A stretch of DNA of 33,753 bases, from assembly GCF_003946275.1 (NCBI RefSeq), contig NZ_RHNQ01000026.1, positions 1-33,753 on the forward strand, written 5' to 3'. A program made the position numbers and the translations under genes. The DNA comes from Loigolactobacillus backii (GTDB taxonomy: Bacteria; Bacillota; Bacilli; Lactobacillales; Lactobacillaceae). The notes beneath the pieces were generated by a model, which made no database searches, was not told the origin of the DNA, and saw nothing but the letters and a program-made list of their open reading frames with translations. This document shows positions 949-32,218 of this stretch, piece after piece (position 1 is the first letter of the stretch; the number at the start of each line of letters is the position of its first letter).

Positions 949-1067
949 GAGTGCAGAAAAAGGCGGTTAAATTCTGAGGATTAGCCTAAGAAGGCGGATT
1001 GGCCGTGAAACGGCCGAGACGACTTCTGTAGCTAACCGCAGGAATTTGCCTTTTGGAGCACATTTAA
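949..1067 (+). repeat. Modular palindromic repeat, copy R1 (diverged)
   Basis: A 119-bp imperfect hairpin lying between the sigma-like gene and the DUF1659 gene. The outer stem is GTGC..AAAAAGGC / GCCTTTT..GCAC where other copies have GTGTTTGAAAAAGC / GCTTTTTCAAACAC. The inner arm is GGCCGT-GAA-ACGGCC where copy R4 has ATCTGT-GAA-ACAGAT. Both stems differ from the other copies by paired changes. Confidence 0.75.
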
Positions 1068-1176
1068 ACAATTTTACTACTTTTTCCGCACTCTAAATAT
1101 TTTGTAAGATCTAATCAGGTGGCCACCATTTTTACCCTTACATACTAATAACAATTTAGCGGCCGGATTTGTGACC

Positions 1177-1737
1177 TTAATCGCTGAACAGATTTTCAGC
1201 CTGGCGCCGAACTCGATCGCGAATTCGGTAAACACTGCGGCGATTAATACCTAACTCCTTGGCAATTTGGACCATGTTTTTATCGGCTCGGTAGGCGCGC
1301 CAGAGGTAATAGCGCTCATTTTCGCTAAGTCTAGTCATCAGCAGGTTAAAATGGTCATCGGCCTGAATTGTGGCAATCAGGTCACTGAATTGGCTGGCTT
1401 CTTTGGTGGTAAATTCGGCCATATCGTCAGGCTTTTCGGTTCGTTGCAGTAGTTCGCTAGAAACGCAGCAATTTTGTTGTTTACTAAAATTATTCCGGCG
1501 ATTTTTGTTTGCCCAAATAATGTGGGTGTAGATGTAACTTTCCCGGTTGAGCTGGCTACCACTTTGGTAGTAATCCACGAAGCCAGTGACGTAATCGAGG
1601 ACGCTATCTTGGTAATAATCGGCGAATTCCGAATGCCAGTAATAGATACCGGCGGCCTTGAGCGCACCGTAAATGATGCCAGGATTGGCGGCGAGGCAGG
1701 AAAAGGCTTGTTGTTCTAAATCAGTTTTTTGGGTCAA
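1177..1737 (-). CDS. Sigma-70-like regulator (SigH/ComX type suspected)
   Basis: About 187 residues. The C-terminus (AKELGINRRSVYRIRDRVRR) is a helix-turn-helix like sigma region 4. The N-terminal part (HSEFADYYQDSVLDYVTGF, then YIYTHIIWANKNRRN) resembles the degenerate region 2 of the short sigma-H/ComX-type factors of lactobacilli. Region 1.1 and region 3 are absent. I prefer the TTG at 1737, because the AAGGAG sits directly against the GTG at 1746 but 8 bases before this TTG. It heads a minus-strand group with DUF1659 and DUF2922 genes and lies 2.4 kb from a ComK-like gene. It could instead be a non-sigma HTH regulator. Confidence 0.55.
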   Translation of the reverse strand: MTQKTDLEQQAFSCLAANPGIIYGALKAAGIYYWHSEFADYYQDSVLDYVTGFVDYYQSGSQLNRESYIYTHIIWANKNRRNNFSKQQNCCVSSELLQRTEKPDDMAEFTTKEASQFSDLIATIQADDHFNLLMTRLSENERYYLWRAYRADKNMVQIAKELGINRRSVYRIRDRVRRQAENLFSD

Positions 1738-1746
1738 CAGAAACAC

Positions 1747-2144: not shown

Positions 2145-2160
2145 TTGATTGAATTTCTTA

Positions 2161-2169
2161 TGCTATAAT
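2161..2169 (+). promoter_or_regulatory. Extended -10 promoter of toxin mRNA
   Basis: TGCTATAAT is a perfect extended -10 element. No good -35 at standard spacing is seen. It would give a leader of about 95 nt before the holin-like toxin ORF, fitting the long structured leaders of type I toxin mRNAs. Confidence 0.65.
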
Positions 2170-2269
2170 CACATCAGCAAGGAAGTTGAGGCGGTTGGCA
2201 AATCCAATCTGAAAGTGAGATGGTCACTATGTGTGATGATCAAAATCCAGTAGGAAAGGGGGTGCCTAG

Positions 2270-2494: not shown

Positions 2495-2500
2495 ATCTTC

Positions 2501-2529: not shown

Positions 2530-2540
2530 TGAATTATACC

Positions 2541-5787: not shown

Positions 5788-5795
5788 AATTCACC

Positions 5796-7066: not shown

Positions 7067-7118
7067 CCGTTTTTTTGTTTACGTCTTCTCACAAGCGACC
7101 CTCTTTCGTTGATCTAGA

Positions 7119-7358
7119 GTGTTTGAAAAAGCGGTTAGGTTCTACTCCGCAATTGGGGATTATTACTAGCCGCGCTTACGATGGCGATCGGACTAAGATG
7201 AATCGAAGTCCGAAGCGCAGCCCAAAACGCTAATAATCCTGATGCTACGGACGATGGCCATTCTTGTGGCAAAAGCCAAGGGACACAGTTATAAAGCCAA
7301 TAACTGCTTGCAACTAAGTTCATCTCAGTCACCGCAAGAAGCTGCTTTTTTCAAACAC
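7119..7358 (+). repeat. Modular palindromic repeat, copy R2
   Basis: A 240-bp element with ends GTGTTTGAAAAAGC and GCTTTTTTCAAACAC, directly upstream of the LCP gene. It contains the CGGACT...AGTCCG arm within a GATTATTA / TAATAATC stem, and an arm TGGC-AAAA-GCCA. A loose right end is repeated at 7392-7410 (AAGCTGCTTTTTCAAACG). Confidence 0.85.
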
Positions 7359-7725
7359 GTTTAAACTAAATTTGTCCGGGAAAGCATCGGAAGCTGCTTT
7401 TTCAAACGTATTTGGTCGGCGCTAAATTTATGGTTTGATTATTTAAATAATAATAGCACTAATTTCGCTGATAATTGTAAAGAAACTTTGAAGATTATGA
7501 AGTGCGGCTAAAAATGGCGGCGAATCTCGGGAAGCAGCCACTGCTGGATTGGTGTGGATTATTGAAAACTAGTCTAAGGAGCACAGCTGGCAGCAATGGC
7601 AAATAAGCCGATTGGCCGGTACTTATTTGGCGTGTTGAATTGCCTGATCATGACTCGTTGTGAAGGATAAGCGATCATGGAAAATCAATGAATGACTTTT
7701 TACTAAAACGAAATAGTGAACAAAA
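7359..7725. other. Non-coding spacer before the replication genes
   Basis: No supported gene. Contains a solitary right end of the palindromic repeat (7392-7410). The rest shows nothing I recognise. Confidence 0.4.
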
Positions 7726-10192: not shown

Positions 10193-10215
10193 GTGAGGGG
10201 CTGGCAGGTGTGAGT

Positions 10216-10547
10216 TGTACAAAATAGACCTAAAAGGCTAGGAGGTGCCATGTTTCGAGTGTGCGAACTTTGCACTAGGAGAATGCCACTAGCAGTCCAA
10301 GCTTGCTTGGCAACTGCTATGGACAACGTAAGCAAATAAAGGCAACGGTTCTAAGTTGCTAACAATACTTGTTGCGCTAGTGGCCATCATCCGTAAATAG
10401 GATTTTGTGCTTGCACAAAATAGACCTAAAAGGCTAGGAGGTGCCATGTTTCGAGTGTGCGAGCTTTGCACTAGGAGAATGGACATCATCCGTAAATAGG
10501 ATTTTGTGCTTGCACAAAATAGACCTAAAAGGCTAGGAGGTGATTTC
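10216..10547 (+). repeat. Triplicated leader of the Phd-type antitoxin gene
   Basis: A unit of 99 bp (clean period between 10402 and 10501) carries the palindrome ATTTTGTGC-TT-GCACAAAAT, the segment AGACCTAAAAGGC and the ribosome site TAGGAGGTG. Three copies of the ribosome-site segment begin near 10219, 10415 and 10514. The first lacks the left half of the palindrome. Copies 1 and 2 each open a short ORF at the same place, (M)FRVCELCTRRM..., of 29 codons (10250-10339) and 17 codons (10446-10499). Copy 3 opens the phd gene. Copy 1 is split by a 98-bp insert (10286-10383). Confidence 0.8.
10286..10383. mobile_element. 98-bp hairpin-rich insertion
   Basis: Present in the first leader copy but absent from the second, so it is an insertion or the ancestral sequence lost later. 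Ends CCACTAGC / GCTAGTGG form an outer stem. Inside are AGCAGT-CCAAGC / GCTTGG-ACTGCT (about 10292-10319) and GCAAC / GTTGC (about 10342-10359). MITE-like; no protein is encoded apart from readthrough of the short ORF. Confidence 0.5.
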
Positions 10548-10730
10548 ATGCAAGAATTAACCGTGACGGAGGCCAAAACGCAGCTCAACCGGCTAGTCCG
10601 CGAGGTGGACCGGAACAGCGGCAGCCTGCTAATTCGCAACACGCGTACCGGTGACGTGGTCGTTTTGCTGGCGGCCCATCACTGGCAGGCGGAACTACAG
10701 AATTTGCTAGGTGAAAAATTGAAACTGTAA
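10548..10730 (+). CDS. Phd/YefM-family antitoxin
   Basis: 60 residues from the ATG at 10548, 6 bases after AGGAGGTG. It opens MQELTVTEAKTQLNRLVREV, the Phd/YefM dimerisation and DNA-binding fold, and continues with LLIRNTRTGDVVVLLAAHHW, the usual 'NGKPVAVLVS' strand. Such antitoxins bind their promoter and neutralise a RelE/YoeB or Doc toxin. No toxin of these families follows; the next gene encodes an unrecognised protein. The palindrome repeated upstream (ATTTTGTGC / GCACAAAAT) is the likely operator. A longer in-frame start at 10506 lies within the leader repeat and is unlikely. Confidence 0.8.
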   Translation: MQELTVTEAKTQLNRLVREVDRNSGSLLIRNTRTGDVVVLLAAHHWQAELQNLLGEKLKL

Positions 10731-11080: not shown

Positions 11081-11219
11081 GCGTTGAAAAATACGGTTAC
11101 TAATACCATTCCTAGGTAGGTTGCGATTCGGACTTCGGTTCATCTTAGTTCGATCGACATCGTCAGCGAAGCCAATAATAATCCCCAATTGCGGAGTAGA
11201 ACCTAACCGCTTTTTCCAC
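11081..11219 (-). repeat. Modular palindromic repeat, copy R3 (degenerate, inverted)
   Basis: On the minus strand it reads GGAAAAAGCGGTTAGG, then the CCGCAATTGGGGATTATTA segment and the CGAACT...AGTCCG arm. Its far end is badly decayed (GTTGAAAAAT). No clear terminal inverted repeat is left. Confidence 0.65.
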
Positions 11220-11573
11220 CACTCCCACCACTATTTTAATAAAAATAGTTAAGAAACACGCTAGATGTGTCAATGAAACAGGGACCGGTAAATTTATTTT
11301 TGCTGTGTCCCTATTAGTATGTAAGCGGTATACTTGCATAAGCAACACTGATTCAGACATAGAAAGGCTTGCCTTGAAAAAGTGTCAAAAGACAAAAGAA
11401 AGTCACTGAAAACTTGATTTTTTTTATTTAGGAGTGGGACTATAATAGATTTTAATGAGGGCTATTTTAGTTAGTTGTGATTAAAAAATGGTTTTACATT
11501 TACTTGATCAATTTAATGTAAACGTAGTTGAAAAGGCAGTGTAACAGCATGAACTGCCAGTGATGGAGGGATT
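11220..11573. other. Non-coding spacer before the VOC gene
   Basis: No supported gene. A perfect -10 (TATAAT, 11441-11446) is about 130 bp upstream of the VOC gene; the nearest -35-like TTGATT is 21 bp away, which is too far for a normal promoter. Nothing else recognised. Confidence 0.4.
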
Positions 11574-19181: not shown

Positions 19182-19430
19182 GTGGTTATGCTAGTAAAGT
19201 GGGGTAAGCACAGGCAACGGCTTTTTTAAACCGGGTTACATTAAATTAGTCAGGTAAATATTTAGTCAGGGTATTTTCCCAATCTGACCTAAGAACGGTT
19301 TTGAAAATGGCCACTTGATTCCTACACCCGCGAAAATTCACGACCATTCGTTGTTGGTTAAAACAACTTAAAATAAATAGTGGTCAAACGTCATTTCAAA
19401 GCGGCAACTAGGTCGCTTTTTAAGAATGAC

Positions 19431-20349: not shown

Positions 20350-20366
20350 TTTTTATGTGTTTGTTG

Positions 20367-20404
20367 ATGTGCTGGTGATTGAGTCATCAGCACATTTATT
20401 TTTA
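20367..20404 (+). terminator. Terminator after the priming transferase
   Basis: Stem ATGTGCTG-TGA / TCA-CAGCACAT with a short loop, followed by TTATTTTT. It would reduce read-through into the Wzz-like gene. Confidence 0.8.
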
Positions 20405-20435
20405 TGGATTGAAATGAAGTTCAACGGAGGAAAAG

Positions 20436-21050: not shown

Positions 21051-21059
21051 GTAAATGAA

Positions 21060-21090
21060 CTAACTTAATTGACGGGTTCAATTAAGTTAG
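21060..21090. other. Perfect inverted repeat after the Wzz-like gene
   Basis: CTAACTTAATTGA / TCAATTAAGTTAG with a 5-nt loop. No T-run follows, so it may be a binding site or an mRNA end hairpin. A further stem CCACTTGG / CCAAGTGG lies at about 21208-21244 in the same 245-bp gap. Confidence 0.5.
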
Positions 21091-21328
21091 GTTAAACGTG
21101 TCTAAAAGGGCGGCTTGTAGAATTTAACACCAAATGGGCCACTACTGCCAAATGCGGTAATCGGGTTAGGTAGTCTTGCTGGGTTACTTTAAAAACTAGC
21201 AACTGACCACTTGGTTTCCGCCGAAATAAGTGCGGCCAAGTGGCAGGTATGACTTATTTGGTGCTTGTGGTTAATGCTCAAACGCATAGCGACCTTTGCG
21301 ACATTCTCTAGTTATGGGGTGTTTTTTT

Positions 21329-22705
21329 ATGGAATGGCTTCTGATTCCAATCAGCATGTTGATAAAAAATTTCAGCTTTTCCTTGCCAGGAATCATCGGA
21401 ACACTACCAGTGTACTTGTTTACCTTACTTTTATTTTTTAAATGGGTAACGCAACCCGATCTTTTCGGTCAGTTACTGGTTAGCCGGCGCGTTTTAATTG
21501 GGACCTTTGCTTTTGGCATTAGTCAACTGATCATGATTTTTTACAGTTATCAGATCACTAATCGTCCGCAAGACACCAGTGGTTTATCCACGGGCCCCGT
21601 TAACGTATTCTTGTTTATCGCCAATTTGTTCTTGGTCTATTATTTACTGCAAGTGGTGATTTCGGACCAGCATAAAGCGTTAGGTTTTATTCGCTCCTTA
21701 TTAATAACCTACGTCGTTTTTGGGATTTTAGTTTTAATTCCCCAAATTGTGGCGACGCGCAGTCACTTGATGGATGGCTGGGTTAACTTTCTTGGCCGGA
21801 TGTTTGAGGCTGAGCACCAGGGGCGGTTTGATTTTTACCGCCACGGCAGTTACGCTACGACCCAGCGCCGGGTTAACGGCTTTTCCCAAGAGGCATCTTT
21901 CTTGGCCGCAATGATTGGAATTGTTTTCTTGCCGATTGTGATGGCCGCGATTAAGAATCGTTACGATTATTTTTCAGGCAAATTACATCAACGCCAGTGG
22001 TTTTACTGGGTATTATTGATATTTAGCTTCATTGTTTTATTCTTTGCCAAAACATCGACGGGCTTCATCGTCATTGCTTTGGCAGTGGTGATCCTGTTTT
22101 TCGCCTCATCGGCCAGCGATCAACGGCGCTACTTAAAGGCCGGGGTGGTTGCCCTAGTACTGCTGGTAGTATTGTACATAGCGGACCCAGGTGTTCAGGC
22201 CATTTTACAAAAGTACGTTTTAAATAAACAGGGCACTGCTAACCGACTTGGCGGGACGATTGCGTTATTCTTAACCTTCCTGCATTACCCATTGTTCGGC
22301 GTGGGCCGGGGCTATACCAGTTACTACAGTTTCTTGTACGTACCCAAGTCAACCATCGCTAATCCCGAGTACTTTATGACTTTCGTTCAAACCGGCTACC
22401 CAGACCAAAGCGTGTGGGGTGAAATTTTTGCCAGTTACGGGTTAGTGACAATTGTGCCAACCTTTTTGTACTTGTACCATAAAGTGAAAACGGCGTTGAA
22501 TTTAAAACGATTTTTTGTGAAACAAACCGATTCAAGCAGTATACTGTACGTAACGATTCTTGATAGTTTCTTTTACACTTTAATCATGTTTGCCGTTTTA
22601 GCTATTTTCACCTTTTCGTGGAACGATGAAATCTACTTTGTCATTTTCTTCTTCTACATTGTGATTATTAATCGAGTTAGTGGGGAATTGAAAATTGAAC
22701 GTTAA
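21329..22705 (+). CDS. Putative polysaccharide polymerase (Wzy-like)
   Basis: About 458 residues with roughly ten membrane helices and a large loop (VNFLGRMFEAEHQGRFDFYR, then QRRVNGFSQEASFLAAM). The Gly-Phe-Ser-Gln-Glu-Ala-Ser motif and a later Gly-Val-Gly-Arg-Gly-Tyr segment are typical of O-antigen-ligase/polymerase-like proteins. It would join repeat units outside the membrane. I prefer ATG 21329 (GGGGTG 7 bases upstream); ATG 21314 and TTG 21296 are in frame but lack a ribosome site. Overlaps the next gene by 11 bp. Sequence divergence is normal for Wzy, so the call rests on topology and context. Confidence 0.75.
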   Translation: MEWLLIPISMLIKNFSFSLPGIIGTLPVYLFTLLLFFKWVTQPDLFGQLLVSRRVLIGTFAFGISQLIMIFYSYQITNRPQDTSGLSTGPVNVFLFIANLFLVYYLLQVVISDQHKALGFIRSLLITYVVFGILVLIPQIVATRSHLMDGWVNFLGRMFEAEHQGRFDFYRHGSYATTQRRVNGFSQEASFLAAMIGIVFLPIVMAAIKNRYDYFSGKLHQRQWFYWVLLIFSFIVLFFAKTSTGFIVIALAVVILFFASSASDQRRYLKAGVVALVLLVVLYIADPGVQAILQKYVLNKQGTANRLGGTIALFLTFLHYPLFGVGRGYTSYYSFLYVPKSTIANPEYFMTFVQTGYPDQSVWGEIFASYGLVTIVPTFLYLYHKVKTALNLKRFFVKQTDSSSILYVTILDSFFYTLIMFAVLAIFTFSWNDEIYFVIFFFYIVIINRVSGELKIER

Positions 22706-23468
22706 AATTTTAGTCGCAGCGCATAAAAATTACACGATGCCAACGGATCACGAGCTTTACTTACCTATTTTTGTGGGCAAGGCGCTACACCCGGACGTAA
22801 ACCACACTTTTCAGGGTGACAATACCGGCGATAATATTTCGGCGAAAAACCCACATTTTAACGAGTTAACGGCGATTTATTGGGCCTGGAAGAATCTGGA
22901 CGCCGACGCCATTGGGTTGGTTCATTACCGCCGTTACCTGAGTTTGCACCACGCAAAAGATTTGAATACGATTTTAACTAAAGCGGACGTCGATAATTTA
23001 TTGGCGCACCACGATATCATTTTGCCCAAGAAACGGCATTATTATATTGAGACCAATTTTTCACACTATGTGCACGCCCACCACGAAGAGCCGTTAGACC
23101 TGGCCCGAGACATTATTAAGACTGACTATCCAACTTACTTGGCGGCCTTTGACACAATGATGCAACGGCGTTCGGCCCACATGTTTAATATGTTTGTGAT
23201 GAAGAAACCAGCCTTTGATGCTTACTGTGCTTGGGTGTTTGACATCTTGTTTAAGGTTGAAAAACAACTGGACATCACTAATTACGATACTTATGAAACG
23301 CGGGTTTATGGCTTTATTAGCGAACGCCTGTTGGATGTTTGGCTGGAGGTCAACCGCCAGTACAGCACAACTGAGGTTAATTTTGTCTACATGGAACGGC
23401 AAAATTGGTTCGTTAAGGGTGGTAAGTTTATCGCCCGGAAGTTCGTTGGACGTAAGGCAGGAAGGTAG
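22695..23468 (+). CDS. DUF4422 glycosyltransferase-like protein
   Basis: A 257-residue protein of the DUF4422 family, found in capsule and exopolysaccharide clusters. Typical features are KILVAAHK at the start, GDNTGDNISAKNPHFNELTAIYWAWKN, then GLVHYRRYLS and the late FISERLLDVWL. The DNIS.KN..F.ELT..YW.WKN and HYRRY motifs define the family, which is thought to transfer a sugar in the cytoplasm. It starts at TTG 22695, inside the end of the polymerase gene, so translation is probably coupled. Repeat R4 begins 2 bp after its stop codon. Confidence 0.85.
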   Translation: MNVKILVAAHKNYTMPTDHELYLPIFVGKALHPDVNHTFQGDNTGDNISAKNPHFNELTAIYWAWKNLDADAIGLVHYRRYLSLHHAKDLNTILTKADVDNLLAHHDIILPKKRHYYIETNFSHYVHAHHEEPLDLARDIIKTDYPTYLAAFDTMMQRRSAHMFNMFVMKKPAFDAYCAWVFDILFKVEKQLDITNYDTYETRVYGFISERLLDVWLEVNRQYSTTEVNFVYMERQNWFVKGGKFIARKFVGRKAGR

Positions 23469-23469
23469 A

Positions 23470-23580
23470 GTGTTTGAAAAAGCGGTTAGATTCTGAGGAT
23501 TAGCCTAGATTGACGAATTATCTGTGAAACAGATGATTTGGCGATCGTAGCTAACCGCAGGAACCTGCTTTTTCAAACAC
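23470..23580 (+). repeat. Modular palindromic repeat, copy R4 (simple form)
   Basis: A 111-bp single hairpin. Ends GTGTTTGAAAAAGC / GCTTTTTCAAACAC are a perfect 14-bp inverted repeat, continued by GGTT..CTGAGGATTAGC against GCTAACCGCAGGAACC. The tip is ATCTGT-GAA-ACAGAT. It starts 2 bp after the upstream stop codon. Confidence 0.92.
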
Positions 23581-23592
23581 GTTTCCGCCAGA

Positions 23593-23904
23593 GTGCCTAA
23601 AAAGCGGTTAGGTTCTGAGGATTACTAACGATGTCGATCGGACTAGGATGAACCGAAGTCCGAATCGCAGCCTAGATTGACGAATTATCTGTGAAACAGA
23701 TGATTTGGCGATCGTAGCTACTATTCCGCAATTGAGGATTATTACTAGCTTCGCTTACGATGTCGATCGGACTAGGATGAACCGAAGTCCGAGTCGCAGC
23801 CTAAAACGCTAATAATCTTGATGCCTCACACGTTGTCCATTCAACTAAGGCGAAAATCGCCAAGTTGAAACATGGCAACCGCAGGAACCTGCTTTTACAA
23901 ACAC
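23593..23904 (+). repeat. Modular palindromic repeat, copy R5 (composite)
   Basis: A 312-bp element, 12 bp after R4. It carries, in order, the CGGACT/AGTCCG arm, the ATCTGT/ACAGAT arm, a second CGGACT/AGTCCG arm enclosed by GATTATTA/TAATAATC, and the TTCAACT-GGCGA/TCGCC-AGTTGAA arm, between the usual ends. The arms of other copies are combined here. Confidence 0.9.
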
Positions 23905-23986
23905 GTTTCCACCAGTTAGCCAAAGCTTCTAGTAGGATCACAGAAACAGATTCAATAAAAATTATTTTGTCAGATGAATTAAAAAG

Positions 23987-24823
23987 ATGGGTATTAAAAA
24001 AATGACGCAATTAGATGTTTTGCATAAAATTGAATTAAATTTATTAAAAACAGTGGTCGATATTTGTGAGCGACACCAAATCAATTATTTTATGATCGGC
24101 GGTTCACTTTTGGGCACCATCCGGCATCAGGGCTTCATTCCTTGGGATGATGACATTGATGTCGGCTTTTTGCGTCAAGATTACGAAAAATTTTTACAGG
24201 TGGCGGCAGGCGAATTACAGCCGGCGCAACGGCTAATGACAACGCAAAATACGAAGGATTACGGTTTTGCTTTTTCGAAGATTGTTGCTGAAAATACTGA
24301 AATGGTTGAAACGTACAACCTACCTAATAACGCGGTACATAGCGTTTACGTCGATCTATTTCCCTTTGACGCGATTCCGGCAGCTGTTCAGGCCCGGCAG
24401 AAGCAGTACAAGCAGTTTAAACTGTATAATCGTTTGGTAATTGAGCGGTTGAAGTACGGCCACGCGGATCCACCGGCAAAACGCGCGGTGATTGTGGCGT
24501 TAAACTTGGTGCACCGTTTTCAGTCCGTGGGCTACTTGAAACAGGAGCGGCGCGCAATTATGACTGCCTATCAGGCGCAGGCCGCCACATTAGATCAAAT
24601 CAACATGTGCTCGCAGTACGCTTACGGTAAGGAAATCATCAAACAAAGTGAACTCCACCAATTTATAACGCGTTCATTTTCCGGCCTGCAAGTGAAGGTG
24701 CCAGCGGCCTACGATGCCATTTTGACGCGAATGTACGGCGATTACATGCAACTGCCACCAAAAGACAAGCAAGTGGAAAAGCATCTGAGTGATTTCCGCG
24801 TTGATGGCCAGATTGTGGATTAA
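23987..24823 (+). CDS. LicD-family phosphotransferase
   Basis: A 278-residue protein of the LicD/fukutin-like nucleotidyltransferase-fold family, which move phosphocholine or phospho-polyols from CDP-activated donors onto glycans. The signature is MIGGSLLGTIRHQGFIPWDD (about 36-55) followed by DIDVGF; the two acidic groups bind metal. Later VYVDLFPFDAIP and YAYGKEI are also family features. ATG 23987 or 24002 are both possible; neither has a good ribosome site. With a TagD-like CDP-glycerol-forming enzyme in the same cluster, glycerol phosphate is a plausible group (inference). Flanked by repeats on both sides. Confidence 0.9.
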   Translation: MGIKKMTQLDVLHKIELNLLKTVVDICERHQINYFMIGGSLLGTIRHQGFIPWDDDIDVGFLRQDYEKFLQVAAGELQPAQRLMTTQNTKDYGFAFSKIVAENTEMVETYNLPNNAVHSVYVDLFPFDAIPAAVQARQKQYKQFKLYNRLVIERLKYGHADPPAKRAVIVALNLVHRFQSVGYLKQERRAIMTAYQAQAATLDQINMCSQYAYGKEIIKQSELHQFITRSFSGLQVKVPAAYDAILTRMYGDYMQLPPKDKQVEKHLSDFRVDGQIVD

Positions 24824-24973
24824 TTGCTAGCGGTGCGATAATGAAGAAACGATGGCGGTGATTGAAGCAGTGCTCCGCGAAGACAGTCCGGATTAAGTTG
24901 CCGTCTTCATTGAGCTACTACAGGCAGGGCCGTTATTTTTATATAAACTGAAAAATGGTCTGGTTACATAAAC
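24824..24973. other. Spacer with possible gene remnant
   Basis: A short open stretch at about 24837-24896 reads DNEETMAVIEAVLREDSPD and stops. It may be the tail of a lost gene but is too short to identify. Confidence 0.2.
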
Positions 24974-25240
24974 GTGAACGCAAAAGCAGTTTCCTGTGGT
25001 TGCCATGTTTCAACTTGGCGTATTTCGCCGTAGTTGAATGGACAACGTATGGCGCATCAAGATTATTAGCGTTTTAGGCTGCGACTCGGACTTCGGTCCA
25101 TTTTAGTCCGATCGACATCGTAAGCGAAGCTAGTAATAATCCTCAATTGCAGAATAGTAGCGCCAAAATACGTTTCGGCCGTTGCTCGGCTAAAGCCGCT
25201 TCTTAGGCCAATCCGCAGAAACTCCCGCTTTTGCATCGAC
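24974..25240 (-). repeat. Modular palindromic repeat, copy R6 (variant ends, composite)
   Basis: A 267-bp element inverted relative to R4. Ends GTGAACGCAAAAGC / GCTTTTGCATCGAC are a different end sequence from the main form, but the inner modules are shared: TTCAACTTGGCG arm, CGGACT/AGTCCG arm, TAATAATC stem, then a GGCCGTT-GC-TCGGC-like arm. Confidence 0.85.
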
Positions 25241-25247
25241 ATAAACG

Positions 25248-25356
25248 TGAAAGCAAAAGCAGTTTCCTGCGGTTAGCTACAGAATGCGTTTCGGCCGTTG
25301 TACGGCCCAAGCCGCTTCTTAGGCTAATCCGCAGAAACTCCCGCTTTTGTGTTCAC
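25248..25356 (-). repeat. Modular palindromic repeat, copy R7 (variant ends, simple)
   Basis: A 109-bp hairpin, 7 bp after R6. Ends GTGAAAGCAAAAGC / GCTTTTGTGTTCAC. The tip is GGCCGT-TGT-ACGGCC in the place where R4 has ATCTGT-GAA-ACAGAT. It ends 15 bp before the next start codon and just upstream of its GGAGG. Confidence 0.88.
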
Positions 25357-25370
25357 TCTGGAGGTAAATT

Positions 25371-26264
25371 ATGGTATCTGTTAGTGCTGTTGTTGTAACT
25401 TATAATCGATTGGATTTGCTTAAGGAATGCTTGGCGGCGCTTTTGGGCCAGTCTTATTCTTTGGCCCACTTGATTGTGATCGATAATCATAGTGACGCGC
25501 CTACACAAACTTATTTAAAGCAATTAGGCGCAAAGATCGATTATGTTCGTTTAAAAGAAAATATTGGTGGCGCCGGCGGCTTTTATTCGGGAATTAAGTA
25601 TTTTGCGGAAAAAACTAATGACGATTTTGTTTGGTTAATGGATGATGATACAATTCCGGATAAAAATGCTTTAAACGCTTTGGTGGCGGCTTACAAGGCC
25701 AAACCAGCGACTGGCTTTTTGGCTAGCAATCCCAAGTGGGTGGACGGCACACCTGCGATTATGAACGTGCCGGTGGTGGCGCATCCACTGTGGACGAGTG
25801 CCCTGAACGCCGACAGTCACTTAATCGAGATTAGTCGGGCCAGTTTTGTATCGGTGATGACGAGCCGCGCAGTTGTTTTGAAGTTAGGCTTGCCGATTCG
25901 CCAGTTCTTTATTTGGGGTGACGATACCGAGTACACCGAGCGAATTACGCAACAGTATAAGGCTTACTTGGTCCCCGACAGCTTGGTGACGCACAAAATG
26001 AAGCTGAATCGTGGCGTTAATATTCTGGAAGATGATTCTGCCCGGGCCGGTCGGTATTTTTACGCCTACCGGAATCGCTTATATAATTCCCGCCGGCGTT
26101 CCCGTAAAGAAGTGATTCATTATTACATTCAATTTACAAGTACAACGTTGCACTTATTATTTGGGCACTCAAAACACCGTTGGCATAAGCTCCGGGTTAT
26201 TTTTTCCGGAATGCTGGCGGGCATAACCTTCCGCCCAAAAATTGAATTTCCAAACGTAAAATGA
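25371..26264 (+). CDS. GT2 glycosyltransferase, galactofuranosyltransferase type
   Basis: A 297-residue GT-A fold enzyme. The N-terminal SAVVVTYNRLDLLKECL is the GT2 nucleotide-binding strand. KENIGGAGGFYSGI (62-75) and WLMDDDT (88-94) follow, with the metal-binding Asp triad 91-93; WGDDTEY (182-188) is the likely catalytic-acid region. The GGAGG-F motif and the DDD triad are characteristic of GlfT-like galactofuranosyltransferases and related rhamnosyltransferases. The UDP-galactopyranose mutase gene follows 560 bp downstream, supporting UDP-Galf as donor. GGAGG precedes the ATG by 7 bases. A 38-bp repeat begins 12 bp after the stop. Confidence 0.85.
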   Translation: MVSVSAVVVTYNRLDLLKECLAALLGQSYSLAHLIVIDNHSDAPTQTYLKQLGAKIDYVRLKENIGGAGGFYSGIKYFAEKTNDDFVWLMDDDTIPDKNALNALVAAYKAKPATGFLASNPKWVDGTPAIMNVPVVAHPLWTSALNADSHLIEISRASFVSVMTSRAVVLKLGLPIRQFFIWGDDTEYTERITQQYKAYLVPDSLVTHKMKLNRGVNILEDDSARAGRYFYAYRNRLYNSRRRSRKEVIHYYIQFTSTTLHLLFGHSKHRWHKLRVIFSGMLAGITFRPKIEFPNVK

Positions 26265-26276
26265 TAGATTATTAGA

Positions 26277-26314
26277 GTGTACAAAAAGCGGTTGCGGGAT
26301 GACTTTTTGAACAC
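26277..26314. repeat. Minimal 38-bp palindromic repeat (R8)
   Basis: GTGTACAAAAAGCGGTTGCG paired with GACTTTTTGAACAC. The ends match the large repeats, but nearly all the interior is missing. Placed right after a stop codon, it could act as a hairpin terminator. Confidence 0.7.
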
Positions 26315-26430
26315 GCTTAGTAATGGATTTTATTTGAAGAAAAAGTAGGCGTAATTGGCCGCGATTAATCGGCAATCTAGGAGTGTCTGGGACTACTTTC
26401 GCTAGTATTTTCCTGACTAACTTGGTGGAA

Positions 26431-26779
26431 ACGTGTTTGAAAAAGCAGATTCCTGACTAATTTAGCGAAAACGTGTTTGAAAAAGCAGGTTCCTGCGGTT
26501 GCCATGTTTCAACTTGGCGATTTTCGCCTTAGTTGAATGGACAACGTGTGAAGCATCAAGATTATTAGCGTTTTAGGCTGTGACTCGGACTTCGGTCCAT
26601 TTTAGTCCGATCGACATCGTTAGTAATCCTCAGAATCTGAACGCTTTTTCAGGCACTCTGTTGGAAACGTGTTTGAAAAAGCAGGTTCCTGCGGTTAGCT
26701 ACGATCGCCAAATCATCTGTTTCACAGATAATTCGTCAATCTATGCTAATCCTCAGAACCTAACCGCTTTTTCAAACAC
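26431..26779 (-). repeat. Cluster of palindromic repeats R9-R11
   Basis: Three inverted-orientation elements in a row: a lone end at about 26431-26455 (CGTGTTTGAAAAAGCAG then TTCCTG), a composite of 184 bp at 26473-26656 (TTCAACTTGGCGA/TCGCC arm plus CGGACT/AGTCCG arm), and a simple 111-bp hairpin at 26669-26779 (ATCTGT-TTC-ACAGAT tip) that is close to the exact reverse complement of R4. Each starts after TGG-AAACGTGTTTG or a similar flank. Confidence 0.9.
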
Positions 26780-26824
26780 TTTCTAATAACAAATACGTAT
26801 CTTAAGAATAGAGGAGAAAAGTTA

Positions 26825-27943
26825 ATGGCTCATTATGATTATTTAGTAGTTGGTGCTGGTTTGTTTGGCGCAACTTTTGCTTACGAAGCAGCGAAACGCG
26901 GTAAAACGGTTAAGGTAATTGAAAAGGAAGATCACATTGGTGGCCATATTTACACTAAGAACGTTGATGGTATTAACGTTCACGTTTACGGCGCCCACAT
27001 TTTCCACACCAGCAACAAGAATATCTGGGACTACGTTAATCAATTTGCGGAATTCAACCGCTACACCAACAGCCCCATCGCTAATTACAAAGGCGAAATC
27101 TTTAATATGCCATTTAACATGAATACCTTCAATAAAATGTGGGGCGTCATCACGCCAGCAGAAGCTCAGGCCAAGATTGACGAACAACGCCAAGAAATGG
27201 CCGGGAAAAAGCCAGCTAACTTGGAAGAGCAGGCAATCTCACTGATTGGCCGGGATGTCTACGAAAAGTTAGTTAAGGGCTACACTGAAAAGCAGTGGGG
27301 TAAAAAGGCAACTGACCTACCAGCTTTCATTATTCGTCGTTTGCCCGTTCGGTTAACTTACGATAATAATTACTTTAATGATGCGTATCAAGGCATTCCA
27401 ATCGGTGGTTATACGCAGATTATCGAAAAAATGCTGGCTGACGATAAAATTTCTGTTGAAACGGGCGTTGATTTCTTCGCTAATAAAGATCAGTACTTAA
27501 AGGATTCACCAAAGGTAATTTTCACGGGCATGATTGATCAATACTTCGACTATCAATTGGGTACGCTGGAATACCGGAGTTTGCACTTTGAAACCGAAGA
27601 ATTAGATCAACCTAACTATCAGGGTAATGCCGTCGTTAACTATACGGACGCTGAAACGCCATATACGCGGATTATCGAACATAAACACTTCGAATTTGCC
27701 CGTGGTAATAAGAAGAAAACGATTATCACTAAGGAATTTCCCAAGACTTGGCAAAAAGGCGACGAACCTTACTATCCAGTTAACAATAAAGAAAACAATG
27801 GTTTATTTGCGCAGTATAAGGAACTAGCGGCAACGCAGCCCAACGTCGTTTTTGGTGGCCGCTTAGGTCAGTACAAATATTACGATATGCACCAAGTGAT
27901 TCAGGCTGCTTTGACCACCGTCAAAAAGGAATTCAGTGATTAA
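26825..27943 (+). CDS. glf: UDP-galactopyranose mutase
   Basis: A 372-residue flavoenzyme converting UDP-galactopyranose to UDP-galactofuranose, the donor for galactofuranosyl transfer. The N-terminal FAD-binding motif is VVGAGLFGATFAYEAAKRGK, followed by VIEKEDHIGGHIYTKN and HVYGAHIFHTSN. Also seen are YTEKQWGK, LPVRLTYDNNYF, PIGGYTQIIEKML and the final GGRLGQYKYYDMHQVI, all typical of Glf. GGAG precedes the ATG by 8 bases. The next gene begins 3 bp after its stop, so the flippase is probably co-translated. It fits with the GlfT-like GT2 upstream. Confidence 0.96.
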   Translation: MAHYDYLVVGAGLFGATFAYEAAKRGKTVKVIEKEDHIGGHIYTKNVDGINVHVYGAHIFHTSNKNIWDYVNQFAEFNRYTNSPIANYKGEIFNMPFNMNTFNKMWGVITPAEAQAKIDEQRQEMAGKKPANLEEQAISLIGRDVYEKLVKGYTEKQWGKKATDLPAFIIRRLPVRLTYDNNYFNDAYQGIPIGGYTQIIEKMLADDKISVETGVDFFANKDQYLKDSPKVIFTGMIDQYFDYQLGTLEYRSLHFETEELDQPNYQGNAVVNYTDAETPYTRIIEHKHFEFARGNKKKTIITKEFPKTWQKGDEPYYPVNNKENNGLFAQYKELAATQPNVVFGGRLGQYKYYDMHQVIQAALTTVKKEFSD

Positions 27944-27946
27944 TTT

Positions 27947-29371
27947 ATGAAGGTCGTTAAAAACTATTTGTATAATGCGAGTTATCAGCTCTTTTTGATT
28001 CTCGTTCCCTTGATTACCACACCTTATATTTCCCGGGTTTTAGGTCCAGAAGGTGTTGGGATCAACGCCTATACAAATTCAATTATCCAGTATTTTGTCT
28101 TATTCGGTAGTATTGGGATCAATCTTTACGGTAACCGCGAAATTGCGTACCACCGGGATGATCCGGCTAAGCTAACCAAGACTTTCTGGGAAATTGAAAG
28201 TTTACGGATAATTGCCATTTTAGGGGCAATTGTCATTTTTATGGGCTACTTGGCCATTGTCCATAAGTACCATAATTATCTAGTGATGCAGTCTTTCCAG
28301 CTAATTGCGGCGGCGTTTGATATTTCCTGGTTCTTTATGGGAACCGAAGATTTTCGAACTACCGTTTTGCGGAACATGCTAGTTAAGATTTTATCCGTTG
28401 TTTTAATCTTTAGTTTTGTTAAAACGGCCAGTGATACCGCACTGTACATTTTAATTATCGGTGCTTCCCAGTTAGTTGGTAACATCACGTTGTGGCCGTA
28501 CTTACGCAAACGTCTGGTGCCGGGGATGTTCCACCATTTGAATATTTGGCGGCATTTTCGGCCGGCACTGGTTTTGTTTGTGCCTCAAGTGGCTACGCAG
28601 ATTTACTTAGTGTTAAACAAGACGATGTTGGGCCAATTTGACAGTGTTACGGCGGCCGGCTTTTTCGATAATTCAGATAAGATTGTTAAAATGGTGTTGG
28701 CTATTGTGACGGCAACGGGAACAGTAATGTTGCCGCGAGTTGCCCACACTTTTGCTCAAGGTAATATGAAAAAAGTGAATTCTTATTTGTACACGACTTT
28801 TGATTTTGTTACTTTTGCGTCAATTCCGATGATGTTTGGCTTGGCCGCAATTGCACCTAAGTTTGCGACGTGGTTCTTTGGACCTAAGTTTGCCGCCACC
28901 AGTACCTTGCTGATGTGTGAGGCGCCGGTTATCCTGTTCATTGCTTGGAGCAACGCCATTGGGACCCAGTATTTGCTGCCCACTAATCATAACCGCGAGT
29001 ACACGGTGTCCGTAACTATTGGTGCCGTTGTTAATTTACTACTTAACATCCCGTTGATTATTAAGTGGGGTGCCGTGGGGGCGGCGATTTCTACCGTTGT
29101 TTCCGAGGCCAGTGTTGCTTTTTACCAGCTGTACGTTATTCGCAAACAGGCGTCGCTTAGTCGGCTATTTACCAGCTTTTGGAAATATTTACTCGCTGGG
29201 ATAGTGATGTTTGCCGTTGTCTTTGCCATGAATTTACACCTGCCATTTGGCGCCGTTAACTTAGTTCTAGAAGTTGGTGTTGGCATTGTCATTTACGGAC
29301 TGTTGATGGTACTTTTACGGCCAAAGATTTTGACCACAGTGAAAGATTTCGTGGGTTCACGCCGCAAATAA
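27947..29371 (+). CDS. Polysaccharide flippase (Wzx)
   Basis: A 474-residue membrane protein of the RfbX/Wzx group (MOP superfamily) that moves lipid-linked repeat units across the membrane. About 12-14 helices are predicted by eye. The N-terminus NASYQLFLILVPLITTPYIS, then RVLGPEGVGINAYTNSIIQY and GNREIAYHRDD, is highly typical. The start lies 3 bp after the glf stop with no separate strong ribosome site, so it is likely translated by coupling. Repeat R12 starts 4 bp after the stop. Confidence 0.93.
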   Translation: MKVVKNYLYNASYQLFLILVPLITTPYISRVLGPEGVGINAYTNSIIQYFVLFGSIGINLYGNREIAYHRDDPAKLTKTFWEIESLRIIAILGAIVIFMGYLAIVHKYHNYLVMQSFQLIAAAFDISWFFMGTEDFRTTVLRNMLVKILSVVLIFSFVKTASDTALYILIIGASQLVGNITLWPYLRKRLVPGMFHHLNIWRHFRPALVLFVPQVATQIYLVLNKTMLGQFDSVTAAGFFDNSDKIVKMVLAIVTATGTVMLPRVAHTFAQGNMKKVNSYLYTTFDFVTFASIPMMFGLAAIAPKFATWFFGPKFAATSTLLMCEAPVILFIAWSNAIGTQYLLPTNHNREYTVSVTIGAVVNLLLNIPLIIKWGAVGAAISTVVSEASVAFYQLYVIRKQASLSRLFTSFWKYLLAGIVMFAVVFAMNLHLPFGAVNLVLEVGVGIVIYGLLMVLLRPKILTTVKDFVGSRRK

Positions 29372-29374
29372 AGA

Positions 29375-29495
29375 GTGTTTGAAAAAGCGGTTAGATTATG
29401 GAGTATAGCGAGTATAGCCTAGCTAGGCGAAAAGAGACGCGCAGCGGGTCGTTCGACTAGCGTAGCTATACTCTATAATCTGCTTTTTCAAACAC
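29375..29495 (+). repeat. Modular palindromic repeat, copy R12
   Basis: A 121-bp hairpin, 4 bp after the flippase stop. Ends GTGTTTGAAAAAGC / GCTTTTTCAAACAC. The middle stem is AGATTATGGAGTATAGC against GCTATACTCTATAATCT, a sequence different from R4 but still nearly fully paired. The tip is also different (TAG-CGAA / TTCG-CTA). Confidence 0.92.
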
Positions 29496-29606
29496 GTTTC
29501 CACCAAATTAGTCAGGTAAATATGAGCAAAGTTTTTTTCCTAACACGTAGCCGCAACTGCAAGCTTAAAGTGCGTGAAGAATCGTTAAAAGATAAGGGGA
29601 TTAGTG

Positions 29607-30746
29607 ATGATTAGAGTATTAGTGGTGGGTGACTTTATGCGTGGCAGCGGGTTAACCCGCTATCTGGTGGATACTTTTTCACACCTAGACCCAGCAAAGT
29701 ATCAGATTGACGTTTTGAAATATGGTGGTAAGACCGATATGGACGCGCAGTTGCGGGCGTTAGGCTGGCATATTTACGCGGTGACACCAATTACCAGCAA
29801 TCCACTACGCTATTGGTTGCAGTGGCGGCGTTTCCTGAAGCAACAAGGTCACGTTTATCAGATAATCCACTTTAATTATTCGGCGGCGTGGAATTATTTG
29901 CCGATTAAATGGGCTAGTCAATTAACGAAGGCCAAGATTGTGGTTCATTCGCACAACAGTTATTTCGGTAATGTTTCTAGTAAAAAAGCTGTCATGCAAG
30001 TTTTGTTGGCTTTGCACCAGCACGGCAAAAAAGTAATTGCCCGGCACGCTGATTTGATGTTTGCGACTTCAACGGCGGCGGCCAAGTGGCTTTTTCCACC
30101 TGAATTATTGAAAAAGGGCCAAGTTATGGTGCTACGCAACGGGGTTGATTTGGAAAACTTTGCTTATGCGCCGGCTGTTCGGGAAAAATTACGCCAGCAA
30201 GAACAGTTAACTGAGCATTTGGTCGTTGGTTTTACCGGCGTTTTGCTTGATCGCAAGAATCCGTTATTTGCGGTGGACGTTTTTCAGCAAATTCACCAAC
30301 AACGGCCTGATGCGGTTTTAGTCATGGCTGGTGCTGGGGGTCTAAAGCCTGAATTAGAAAAGCGAGTTGCCGCGGCTGGTTTAACCCAATCCGTTCGCTT
30401 TTTAGGCGTGGTGAGCAACATGGCCGAATGGTACCAAGCCTTTGATCTTTTCTTATTTCCATCGAAAGCAGAGGGCTTTGGTTTGGTAGCAGTTGAGGCG
30501 CAGGCTGCCGGCTTACCAACCTTTGTGTCGGAGGCGATTCCAGCAGAAGTCGTTGCTACTCCAATTTGTCACCAGTTGCCTTTAGCCGCTGGTGCAGAAA
30601 AATGGGCGCAACAAATTTTAACCAACTTGCCTGAGGCCCGTCAGTCTGAGGTTGCTACACTAACGGCCAAACATTTTTCGATTAGTGAGAGTGCACAAAC
30701 GCTGGATTCATACTATAATCAGCTATTAGGTGATCAACTTGGTTAA
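29607..30746 (+). CDS. GT4-type glycosyltransferase
   Basis: About 379 residues, GT-B fold. The N-terminal Rossmann domain begins MIRVLVVGDFMRGSGLTRYL and has IVVHSHNSYF. The C-terminal domain has VGFTGVLLDRKNPLFAVDVF, MAGAGGLKPELEKRV and the donor-binding KAEGFGLVAVEAQAAGLPTF (E-x7-E motif). These are retaining transferases acting on lipid-linked intermediates in the cytoplasm (EpsF-like). AAGGGG lies 7 bases before ATG 29607; GTG 29604 is closer than optimal. It overlaps the next gene's start. Confidence 0.88.
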   Translation: MIRVLVVGDFMRGSGLTRYLVDTFSHLDPAKYQIDVLKYGGKTDMDAQLRALGWHIYAVTPITSNPLRYWLQWRRFLKQQGHVYQIIHFNYSAAWNYLPIKWASQLTKAKIVVHSHNSYFGNVSSKKAVMQVLLALHQHGKKVIARHADLMFATSTAAAKWLFPPELLKKGQVMVLRNGVDLENFAYAPAVREKLRQQEQLTEHLVVGFTGVLLDRKNPLFAVDVFQQIHQQRPDAVLVMAGAGGLKPELEKRVAAAGLTQSVRFLGVVSNMAEWYQAFDLFLFPSKAEGFGLVAVEAQAAGLPTFVSEAIPAEVVATPICHQLPLAAGAEKWAQQILTNLPEARQSEVATLTAKHFSISESAQTLDSYYNQLLGDQLG

Positions 30747-31800
30747 AAAAATCGATATTCTCGCACCACATTTGTCCGGAAATGGTGGGATTGAGACCGT
30801 TATTCGGACGGTGATGTTGCATTTTCAAACGACTGAACAACAAAAAAAATACGCTTTTCGCCTAGTTTTGCCACAAGGGGCTACCCAAATGGACTGGACG
30901 GAAGAGATTAACGAGTTAGTGGTTAACCAAATTAAAAATCCGGGTAAAATTAAACGCCAATTATTTGGAACGTGGTACTTGTGGCAGTACGTTCGCCAAA
31001 CCAACGCCGAAATTATCATTTGCCCTAGTACGCGGTTGGTGAAAATGACGGCAATCTTTCGTAAATTACTGCACCGCCACTTTAAGATTATTTCTTGGAT
31101 TCACTTTTCCTTGTACCAGGAAGCGGCGGTCAAGCCAAAAGACCTGCACTACGCTGATTACCATTTGGCAATTAGTTCTGGTATTCAGAAACAGATGGTT
31201 GAGCTTGGTATTCCTGCGGCTAAGATTGCTTTGATTTATAATCCATTAACCCCCCCGCAGGAGCAAATTGTGCCAACAAAAAAGACGGAGTTTGTTTACG
31301 TTGGTCGTTTGTTGTTAGACGGTCAAAAAAATTTACGGGAACTTGTTCTGGCCACAGCCAAACTGCATGGTGATTGGCACTTAACTTTCTACGGTGCCGG
31401 TTCAGACCGCCAGGCTTTGGCCCAATTGATTGCGGATCACGGCCTTGAAGCGCACTATAAGTTTTACGGCTGGACCCAGCAACCTTGGCGGCAAATTACT
31501 GCTGCTTCTAGTTTTGTTTTAACGTCGAAGTATGAAGGCTTTCCGATGGCGCTACTTGAGGCCGTTTCCCGCGGGCTACCCAGCATTGCTAGCAATTGTC
31601 CAACCGGGCCCGATGATATTATTCAAACGGTTAATGGCCGCTTATACCAACCAGGAGATATTGCCGGACTGGCGGCCCAGATGCAAGCTGTAATTGACGG
31701 CAAGCTTCAATATGATCGCCAAAAAGTTCAGGCTTCCGCACGAAAATTTTATCCGGATGTTTATTTTGAACGGTTTGAAAAGGCACTAGAAATGAAATAA
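30739..31800 (+). CDS. GT4-type glycosyltransferase
   Basis: About 353 residues, GT-B fold. It opens KKIDILAPHLSGNGGIETVI and contains IISWIHFSLY, then FVYVGRLLLDGQKNLRELV, LTFYGAGSDRQALAQLI and the donor site TSKYEGFPMALLEAVSRGLP. I prefer TTG 30739, which follows AGGTG by about 6 bases; GTG 30730 is in frame. It starts inside the end of the previous GT gene, so the two transferases are probably coupled. The sugar transferred cannot be inferred. Repeat R13 starts 7 bp after the stop. Confidence 0.87.
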   Translation: MVKKIDILAPHLSGNGGIETVIRTVMLHFQTTEQQKKYAFRLVLPQGATQMDWTEEINELVVNQIKNPGKIKRQLFGTWYLWQYVRQTNAEIIICPSTRLVKMTAIFRKLLHRHFKIISWIHFSLYQEAAVKPKDLHYADYHLAISSGIQKQMVELGIPAAKIALIYNPLTPPQEQIVPTKKTEFVYVGRLLLDGQKNLRELVLATAKLHGDWHLTFYGAGSDRQALAQLIADHGLEAHYKFYGWTQQPWRQITAASSFVLTSKYEGFPMALLEAVSRGLPSIASNCPTGPDDIIQTVNGRLYQPGDIAGLAAQMQAVIDGKLQYDRQKVQASARKFYPDVYFERFEKALEMK

Positions 31801-31807
31801 GCTGAGA

Positions 31808-32218
31808 GTGTTTGGAAAAGCGGTTAGATTCTACTCCGCAATTGAGGATTATTAGCCTAGATCACTAATAATCTTGATGCTACGAACGATGGCCATTCTT
31901 GTGGCAAAGTAGCCGCAAGAAACATGGCTCTGAGGATTACTAACGTTGTCGATCGGATAAGATAAACCGAAGTCCGAATCGCAGCCTAAACAGACGAATT
32001 GCCTTTGAAAAAGGTGATTTGGTTGTTGTAGCTACTATTCCGCAATTGGGGATTATTACTAGCTTCGCTTACGATGTCGATCGGACTAAAATGGACCGAA
32101 GTCCGAGTCGCAGCCAAGATCACTAATAATCTTGATGCTTCAAACGTTGTCCATTCAACTAAGGCAAAATGCGCCAAGATGAAACATGGCAACCGCAGGA
32201 ATCTACTTTTTCAAACAC
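31808..32218 (+). repeat. Modular palindromic repeat, copy R13 (largest composite)
   Basis: A 411-bp element with ends GTGTTTGGAAAAGC and CTTTTTCAAACAC. Arms in order: GATTATTAG/CTAATAATC, GGCCA-TTCTTG-TGGC, CGGAT...AGTCCG, GCCTTT-GAA-AAAGG-like tip, CGGACT/AGTCCG inside GATTATTA/TAATAATC, and TTCAACT...GATGAA. The tip GCCTTT/AAAGG stands where R4 has ATCTGT/ACAGAT. Confidence 0.9.

Follow-up and report, generated by a model that had tools for sequence, protein, structure and literature searches.

A Lactobacillaceae family of modular hairpin repeats with conserved pairing and a 5' end often placed at stop codons

Introduction

Several families of small interspersed repeats have been described in bacteria, and two of them offer the closest comparisons for the repeats reported here, which lie in a 33,753-nt stretch of Loigolactobacillus backii (NZ_RHNQ01000026.1, assembly GCF_003946275.1; hereafter the window) and which form a family of modular hairpins. 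The BOX repeats of Streptococcus pneumoniae and S. suis follow the plan boxA-boxB(n)-boxC, measure 67-637 bp and are predicted to form stem-loops (PMC3049150). In the sections of that source which treat them, they appear as linear modules between end modules with terminal inverted repeats (TIRs) and target duplications, a transposition burst is proposed, and BOX and other families are reported as inserted into one another. The enterobacterial REP sequences (BIME/REPIN) are palindromic, intergenic, present in many copies and partly located near stop codons (PMC12306157); their size is given as 20-40 bp (PMC3733652). The account in PMC12306157 lists 446 of 4,072 REPs as stop-adjacent, and reports ribosome stalling for those no more than 15 nt from the stop (citing its reference 17). 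Two further pneumococcal families are small hairpins: SPRITE, which lies near gene 3' ends and resembles a terminator, and RUP, which has TIRs and target duplications and for which an IS630 mobilizer is proposed (PMC3049150).

An earlier note, made from the letters of the window alone, had listed eleven palindromic sites and suggested that they are non-autonomous mobile elements assembled from interchangeable hairpin arms. Here we ask what in these elements is conserved, where they sit relative to genes, and how they differ between related genomes.

Results

Pairing is conserved, stem sequence is not

The core of the element is about 118 nt long and runs from AGAGTG through an outer stem, a bulge, middle helices and an apical arm to CACGTTT. 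We found that pairing in this core is conserved and the sequences of its stems are not. An alignment of 51 simple copies from several species (A1, 120 columns) folds as one long bulged hairpin. Its outer stem leads into an asymmetric bulge (the GCGNNYAG side), beyond which two more helices are separated by an internal loop, and the apical arm is closed by three loop bases. The RNAalifold consensus of A1 contains 41 pairs, and 26 of them show two-sided changes. The pattern with which these copies were extracted fixes AGAGTG, GCG, AG, GTAGC and CACGTTT, so conservation in those columns is no evidence; a covariance model of the core (R1) later found copies without a motif anchor. In G114, a genome of another genus, 72 units (70 distinct) have changes on both sides at 36 of the 41 pairs. 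There, 95.0% of the pair cells are paired, a figure inflated by the fitting of the alignment to the R1 model, as against 69.7% with the 3' letters shuffled and 34-42% after sliding. Units within one G114 array are strongly divergent in sequence, yet their pairing is kept.

One strand looks like the folding strand, because G-T combinations outnumber A-C combinations in paired columns (216 versus 30). Conserved unpaired motifs and wobbles fixed on one strand also recur across copies. The apical loops of A1 are often GAA, GCA or GTA; GNA triloops are unusually stable in DNA, and these loops might point to a role for single-stranded DNA.

Single window copies fold well in their own right. Five simple copies have fold z-scores of -6.5 to -11.2 relative to dinucleotide shuffles, and a 418-nt composite scores -6.5, a value that no shuffle out of 100 reached.

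The 5' end is anchored at stop codons

In two genera, the 5' end of the element is anchored within a few nucleotides of stop codons. Among 60 Loigolactobacillus clusters, a 5' end that faces a stop codon lies within 15 nt of it in 30 of 38 cases, mostly at -2 to +7, as against 2 of 36 for 3' ends. The corresponding counts are 14 of 16 and 0 of 12 in G114 and 10 of 14 and 0 of 9 in G139, a second genome of that genus, and another set of G114 stretches gave 16 of 21 stop-adjacent 5' ends. When each cluster was slid at random within its own spacer, the mean number anchored was 2.6, 3.1 and 1.2 for Loigolactobacillus, G114 and G139, versus the observed 30, 14 and 10, and the observed value was never reached in 2,000 trials. 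For these counts, open reading frames (ORFs) were called by a simple longest-ORF rule, clusters flanked by called genes on both sides were kept, and one stretch that duplicates another (L115, a duplicate of L135) was left out. Only one of 174 clusters lies within an ORF of at least 90 codons, and we take that ORF to be spurious.

In G114 and G139 together, 39 of 65 clusters are stop-adjacent, and in 26 of these 39 a terminator-like hairpin follows 4-63 nt beyond the array. The same kind of hairpin was found at 95 of 375 open-frame ends without the element, a control that is low because it contains operon-internal and possibly spurious frames. Since the stop-adjacent arrays mostly precede a terminator-like hairpin, the element in this genus probably often forms the start of the 3' untranslated region (UTR).

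Arms and units turn over while sites stay

Comparison of orthologous sites shows that arms and tandem units turn over in place while the sites themselves stay. G007 is the closest genome that we compared with the window genome (G000), and the syntenic pieces of the two are about 86-99.98% identical. In the stretches fetched, an orthologous interval was found for 25 of the 87 G000 clusters with usable flanks, and none of the 25 is an empty site. Thirteen intervals agree to 1 nt or better, and for seven of the thirteen the flanks in the stretch are 100% identical; the remaining 12 differ by 45-518 nt. Run from G007 to G000, the comparison gave orthologous intervals for 26 of 71 clusters. Two of these intervals were short, at -32 and 11 nt; the insertion of another repeat adjoins one, and a 41-nt piece of a further palindromic family (see below) makes up the other.

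Among the 40 gaps of at least 15 nt that were listed, nine, at six orthologous sites, look like whole modules of 45, 78, 103, 158 or 188 nt. One is the loss or gain of a 103-nt arm between flanks that are 99.7% and 99.99% identical. Others comprise a 103-nt together with a 45-nt gap, a single 45-nt gap, a 158-nt gap nested in an arm loop, and a 188-nt gap that corresponds to an entire neighbouring element. At one further site, gaps of 103, 45 and 78 nt occur together, and both strains share an unusual outer bulge and a central arm. Because the central arm and the outer stem are nearly unchanged at this three-arm site, a single gene-conversion tract is insufficient; what is needed is either a series of short events or a process of precise insertion/excision. 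Replacement of a unit was seen at L141:7929, which differs from its counterpart in L119 by 22 mismatches between flanks that are 99.75% and 91.2% identical.

For G139 and G114, compared in stretches (L244-L263) that all belong to one syntenic region, an orthologous interval was found at 16 of 16 and 15 of 18 clusters tested. Counted with the model, 14 of these 16 sites differ in how many units they hold; at one of the 14 (L250:9206) the difference reflects a unit overlooked by the model. No clean empty site was found: by eye, each of the seven short intervals printed holds a partial or other unit. Recent hopping in the manner of a miniature inverted-repeat transposable element (MITE) is unsupported, because neither genome pair yielded a clean empty site. 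Judged by eye, a partial 5' half-unit closes several tandem arrays on the 3' side (in L245, L250, L254 and L261), and such a half-unit also persists at sites without the full unit.

Nine of the 21 units with a counterpart are more than 90% identical to it. Their mean identity is 97.0% versus 93.9% for their flanks, and as the pairs were selected by identity, we read this only as units no less conserved than their surroundings. For eight of these nine units the best paralogue is 74-84% identical, and for the ninth 97%. One two-sided change in situ was noticed by eye (L250:9206 versus L257).

The family is confined to Lactobacillaceae in our scans

R1 matched all eight genomes of the genus, the window's own included, with 11 to 133 matches per genome. 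It matched 60 of 151 Lactobacillaceae genomes, in 17 of 40 genera, and among 299 Bacillota genomes only the one from which the window was taken. The model counts include some opposite-strand matches of one palindrome, and at most 150, 24 and 12 candidates per genome were scored in the genus, family and Bacillota scans, respectively. A pattern scan also placed the family in Loigolactobacillus iwatensis, L. jiayinensis, L. zhaoyuanensis, L. rennini and Lapidilactobacillus concavus. The family makes up about 5% of the sampled sequence (40.0 of 797 kb), a share biased upward since the stretches were chosen around copies.

Plasmid matches are limited to four records, every one from Latilactobacillus curvatus, and two of the four resemble pieces of chromosome in size and gene content. 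The matches include the 18-kb plasmid NZ_CP026117.1 and a 61.6-kb mobilizable plasmid on which a copy lies 9 nt after the stop codon of a DUF2188 gene. For the plasmid copy in NZ_CP031004.1, other records cover 10-27% of the query taken from its surroundings, which left no readable empty site, and a wider search around it matched mostly the neighbouring insertion sequence and relaxase region. Phage records (searched by blastn) and viral contigs (searched by exact pattern) gave no match to the family.

None of the 4227 Rfam families matched an element of the window at or above its gathering threshold; the best hit, at 31700-32320, was to a human long non-coding RNA model (E 0.26). As far as Rfam goes, the match to a described family that the earlier note had named as grounds for abandoning its idea was not found. 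Literature searches among open-licence papers found no description either, and the family seems to be undescribed. Its kind, small structured interspersed repeats, is a known one, and a function in 3' UTRs is the bolder reading.

Copies in the window

The window is part of a 2.57-Mb draft genome with about 100 copies of the family, and holds eleven copies of the bulged hairpin, ten of them clear and one decayed, each a simple core or a composite. Of 59 bounded elements, 25 are simple copies, 111-112 bp long as measured between the outer GTG and the outer CAC; in composites the core is extended by 45- and 103-nt arms, or by more. The inner arms that the earlier note had named do recur as modules, giving lengths of 111, 156 (111+45), 214 (111+103) and 259 (111+45+103) bp.

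Simple cores lie at 948-1065 (+; R1 score 102.8 bits, fold z -6.5), at 23467-23584 (+; 130.4 bits), where the 5' end overlaps the TAG stop of a DUF4422 gene (22695-23468), and at 25243-25359 (-; 82.2 bits), where the 5' end is 11 nt upstream of the start of a glycosyltransferase gene (25371). Another simple core, at 26665-26782 (-; 130.1 bits, fold z -10.9), has a perfect outer stem, and the one at 29372-29499 (+; 100.4 bits) carries another arm type and stands directly after the stop of a flippase-like gene (27947-29371). A composite at 7116-7413 (+) has nested arms, with outer ends at 7119 and 7358 and a second 3' end that extends to 7413. The composite at 23590-23908 (+) lies head-to-tail with the simple core before it and contains a match to the 103-nt arm model R2 (see below) at 23778-23876. 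On the minus strand, a composite with a variant outer stem occupies 24970-25237 (right boundary approximate; R2 match 25002-25100), and another lies at 26469-26659 (50.0 bits; R2 match 26501-26599). The longest composite, at 31805-32222 (+; 418 nt), is multi-branched with two arms of the 103-nt type (31832-31928 and 32092-32190) and begins 4 nt past the stop of an ORF at 30730-31800. The decayed copy, which the earlier note had placed at 11081, is a composite at 11117-11224 (-) made up of the 45-nt arm and the beginning of the 103-nt arm. Further fragments of the family were found at 11477-11539, 19205-19260 and 26396-26452, the last (-) being a tail with an additional 3' half-element.

Family sequence was thus present at all eleven sites that the earlier note had listed, and end motif and fold scores back them. 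It had named the absence of other genomic copies as grounds for abandoning the family, and we see the reverse: the end 14-mer GTGTTTGAAAAAGC occurs 99+98 = 197 times in the genome with at most one mismatch, versus 1+2 = 3 times for a reversed-pattern control. Its description of the ends needs revision. AGAGTG and CACGTTT are indeed common to the copies, and the fixed terminal repeat is not, since the stem between them covaries. Many Loigolactobacillus copies are also followed by a tail (GTTTACACTAAATTAGTCAGG..., about 65 nt by eye), which makes the element longer than had been listed.

The 103-nt arm also occurs alone

R2, a model of the 103-nt arm in which the terminal hairpin alone is modelled as paired, matched 10 of 151 Lactobacillaceae genomes in 4 of 40 genera (at most 26 candidates scored per genome), fewer than the core. 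In G005, a congener, R2 units form head-to-tail arrays, with three matches in L228 and five in L229, and at neither place was there an R1 match at E 1e-8. Because the arm forms arrays of its own, composites can be nests of separate hairpin repeats. The stand-alone arrays, along with the turnover of arms in place, uphold the earlier view of a modular build with nested or exchanged arms, unlike that of ordinary MITEs.

Neither Y1_Tnp nor RVT_1 tracks the element

The earlier note saw no transposase in the window, and none of 17 window ORFs scanned has a transposase domain. Across the 11 carriers checked, Y1_Tnp (PF01797) has no match in G000, G001, G002, G004, G005, G007 and G009, and, of 151 genomes, the 43 that do match include none of the carriers G064, G084, G114 and G139. 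The reverse transcriptase domain RVT_1 is present in four carriers (G000, G004, G005 and G007) and was not found in the other seven (G001, G002, G009, G064, G084, G114 and G139). A common enzyme was rejected on this ground, as the distribution of neither domain tracks the element, and so was a group II intron or other retroelement linked to reverse transcriptase, with RVT_1 in just 4 of 11 carriers. Integron attC sites, which are also palindromes after a stop codon, were set aside because their end motifs do not fit. Replication-strand bias, a sign of single-strand transposition, was not seen when clusters of the listed matches were counted per contig half with the origin not located (21+/22- and 11+/17- in G114; 7+/8- and 11+/9- in G005).

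Neighbouring features and other repeats

A 2028-aa surface protein with a KxYKxGKxW signal and MBG, MucBP, MucBP_2 and Muc_B2 domains is encoded at 12150-18236, and its DNA contains four copies of a 300-nt repeat at 492-nt spacing as well as 36-nt repeats. A polysaccharide cluster follows at 19633-32751 (sugar transferase, Wzz-like, Wzy-like, DUF4422, LicD, glycosyltransferases, UDP-galactopyranose mutase and flippase-like proteins), and elements of the family occupy five of the gaps in it, some in each orientation. Outside the elements, the Rfam family rli28 matches at 2154-2340 and 33214-33379 (51 and 46.2 bits; threshold 45), and one of these matches adjoins a tandem array, at 2340-2741, of repeats about 200 bp long. 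Three copies of a 71-nt repeat, separated by 196 and 99 nt, lie at 10215-10580, just downstream of a gene for a DnaB-like helicase; the third copy is only 61% alike.

Elsewhere, a second palindromic family (GTGCGCCAAAAGTC... / GGGACAAAAGTCC...) was found at L037, L113:1228-1523, L143:1560-1824 and L127, and by eye some of its copies seem to carry the modular hairpin element as an inner arm. Comparison of L127:8167-8601 with L142:18482-18735 reveals an insertion within the element's tail that starts with GGCGTGTC and ends with ACACTCC. By eye, this insertion has an apparent ACTAG duplication, unlike the hairpin element itself.

Discussion

The explanation that we favour, and to which we give about half our belief, is that these elements are a REP-like family of structured repeats of the Lactobacillaceae whose folded single strand is kept, often in 3' UTRs, and which are remodelled by recombination. 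The conserved entity would be the single-stranded fold of one strand, most likely as RNA. Stop-adjacent copies would be transcribed as the beginning of the 3' UTR, where a long hairpin 0-7 nt past the stop would meet the terminating ribosome, as with enterobacterial REPs, and might shield or expose the 3' end of the mRNA and so affect decay from that end. Arms, which by eye occupy internal loops and junctions, would add branches and leave the core intact. Hairpins are prone to recombination and the many paralogues could act as templates, so that arms and units may be gained, lost and swapped through recombination between copies; our favoured candidate step is cleavage of the hairpin and then repair from a paralogue. 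The machinery of the original spread may now be inactive. A more ambitious version, which we regard as doubtful, is that the family is throughout an RNA device, in which the core at the stop codon, as the opening part of the 3' UTR, senses terminating ribosomes and interchangeable arm modules, at least one of them an independent repeat, are plugged in or out in place to re-tune gene ends between close strains.

Several observations weigh against the explanation that we favour. Paired changes might arise in palindromes by template switching, with no function behind them, and the nine orthologous pairs give no support for compensation on a short time scale: their 32 substitutions comprise 18 unpaired, 14 paired and no compensated changes, and by the RNAfold structure of one copy, nine of the 14 break a pair and five keep it. 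The G-T excess is mostly due to a few fixed wobble pairs; minus these, G-T and A-C stand at 69 versus 29 in alignment A2 and, by subtraction, at 25 versus 17 in A1, and A-C is the more numerous in the outer stem of A1. Stop adjacency is also partial. It is lacking in 26 of the 65 G114/G139 clusters, and 30 of the 60 Loigolactobacillus clusters have no 5' end anchored within 15 nt of a stop. In 22 of those 60, the 5' end points at a start codon, antisense to that gene (ten at 11-42 nt from the start, several adjoining a Shine-Dalgarno-like sequence), and copies between codirectional genes are 20 sense and 21 antisense. With these unanchored and antisense copies, a pure 3'-UTR role cannot cover all cases. 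Finally, in a small sample with few flanked copies, diverged species had no upstream gene in common; host genes were shared only within the close pairs G000-G007 and G114-G139.

Some of these points fit an alternative that we take seriously while thinking it improbable, namely that the elements are neutral or selfish palindromic DNA, with pairing maintained by template-switch mutation and gene conversion, and with gene ends as sites that merely tolerate insertion. The exchange of arms and replacement of units, the tandem arrays that finish in partial units, the mostly pair-breaking changes among paired substitutions and the lack of a host gene common to diverged species in the small sample would all be expected. 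Mere tolerance, however, predicts no polar anchor, and the 5' and 3' ends behave very differently at stops in all three sets; the conserved unpaired motifs and fixed one-strand wobbles also sit poorly with neutrality, as does the finding that orthologous units, in the selected pairs, are no less conserved than their flanks. A MITE moved in trans by a transposase that recognizes its ends would account for dispersed, intergenic palindromes in high copy number and for the copy on a mobilizable plasmid. We nevertheless think it distinctly unlikely. The conserved TIRs expected of a MITE are not found, as the outer stem covaries and AGAGTG and CACGTTT alone are shared, none of the 25 G000-to-G007 intervals or seven short G139/G114 intervals is a clean empty site, and matches in mobile replicons stop at the four Latilactobacillus curvatus plasmid records. 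With ends that covary, sites that stay and a 5' anchor at stops, the non-autonomous transposon that the earlier note had proposed is left unsupported.

Two narrower ideas fare worse. Portable bidirectional intrinsic terminators of the form AAAAAGC-hairpin-GCTTTTT are suggested by the A-tract and T-tract on either side of the inner hairpin, seen in most of the Loigolactobacillus copies in A1, and by the stop-adjacent siting, but G114 has many other paired letters at the tract positions, a separate terminator-like hairpin follows most of the stop-adjacent G114/G139 arrays, and several copies lie between same-strand genes of the polysaccharide cluster, all of which makes this very improbable. Hardly any weight falls on a REP/REPIN-type element of a Y1 transposase (RAYT or IS200/IS605) acting on folded single strands: its strand-specific fold, high copy number and stop-adjacent siting, as in some REPs, would match, but the carriers checked have no Y1_Tnp match.

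If the REP-like explanation that we favour is right, a dispersed bacterial repeat family with compensatory evolution on a genome scale would mean that fold, and not sequence, is preserved. The polarity toward stop codons would give intergenic repeats, whose function is an old open question, a directly testable role, and in food bacteria. The gain and loss of arms between flanks of nearly identical sequence would make these strains a live system for the building of multi-branched hairpins from smaller repeats.

How does the family compare with known repeats? Palindromic or double-hairpin repeats, some proposed to be selfish, occur in intergenic DNA of fungal and algal organelles; the likeness is in the intergenic hairpins, and by description the organellar location sets them apart. 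SPRITE and RUP share the small hairpin, and neither is described as modular or covarying in the parts of PMC3049150 that concern them. BOX repeats resemble the present elements in architecture, compared by description only, being modular with internal modules that are present or absent (here, the 45- and 103-nt arms). As far as the cited account of BOX goes, the differences are that arms here occupy several internal positions of a covarying hairpin, that no clean empty site was found, and that the anchor at stops is polar. REPs share a palindrome near stop codons, whereas the element here is larger and multi-helical, lacks a Y1 transposase match in the carriers checked, and is stop-adjacent in a higher share of cases (30 of 60 in Loigolactobacillus and 39 of 65 in G114/G139, versus the 446 of 4,072 given for REPs). 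On the portions of these sources that describe them, BOX is the nearest modular family, and REPs are the nearest in placement.

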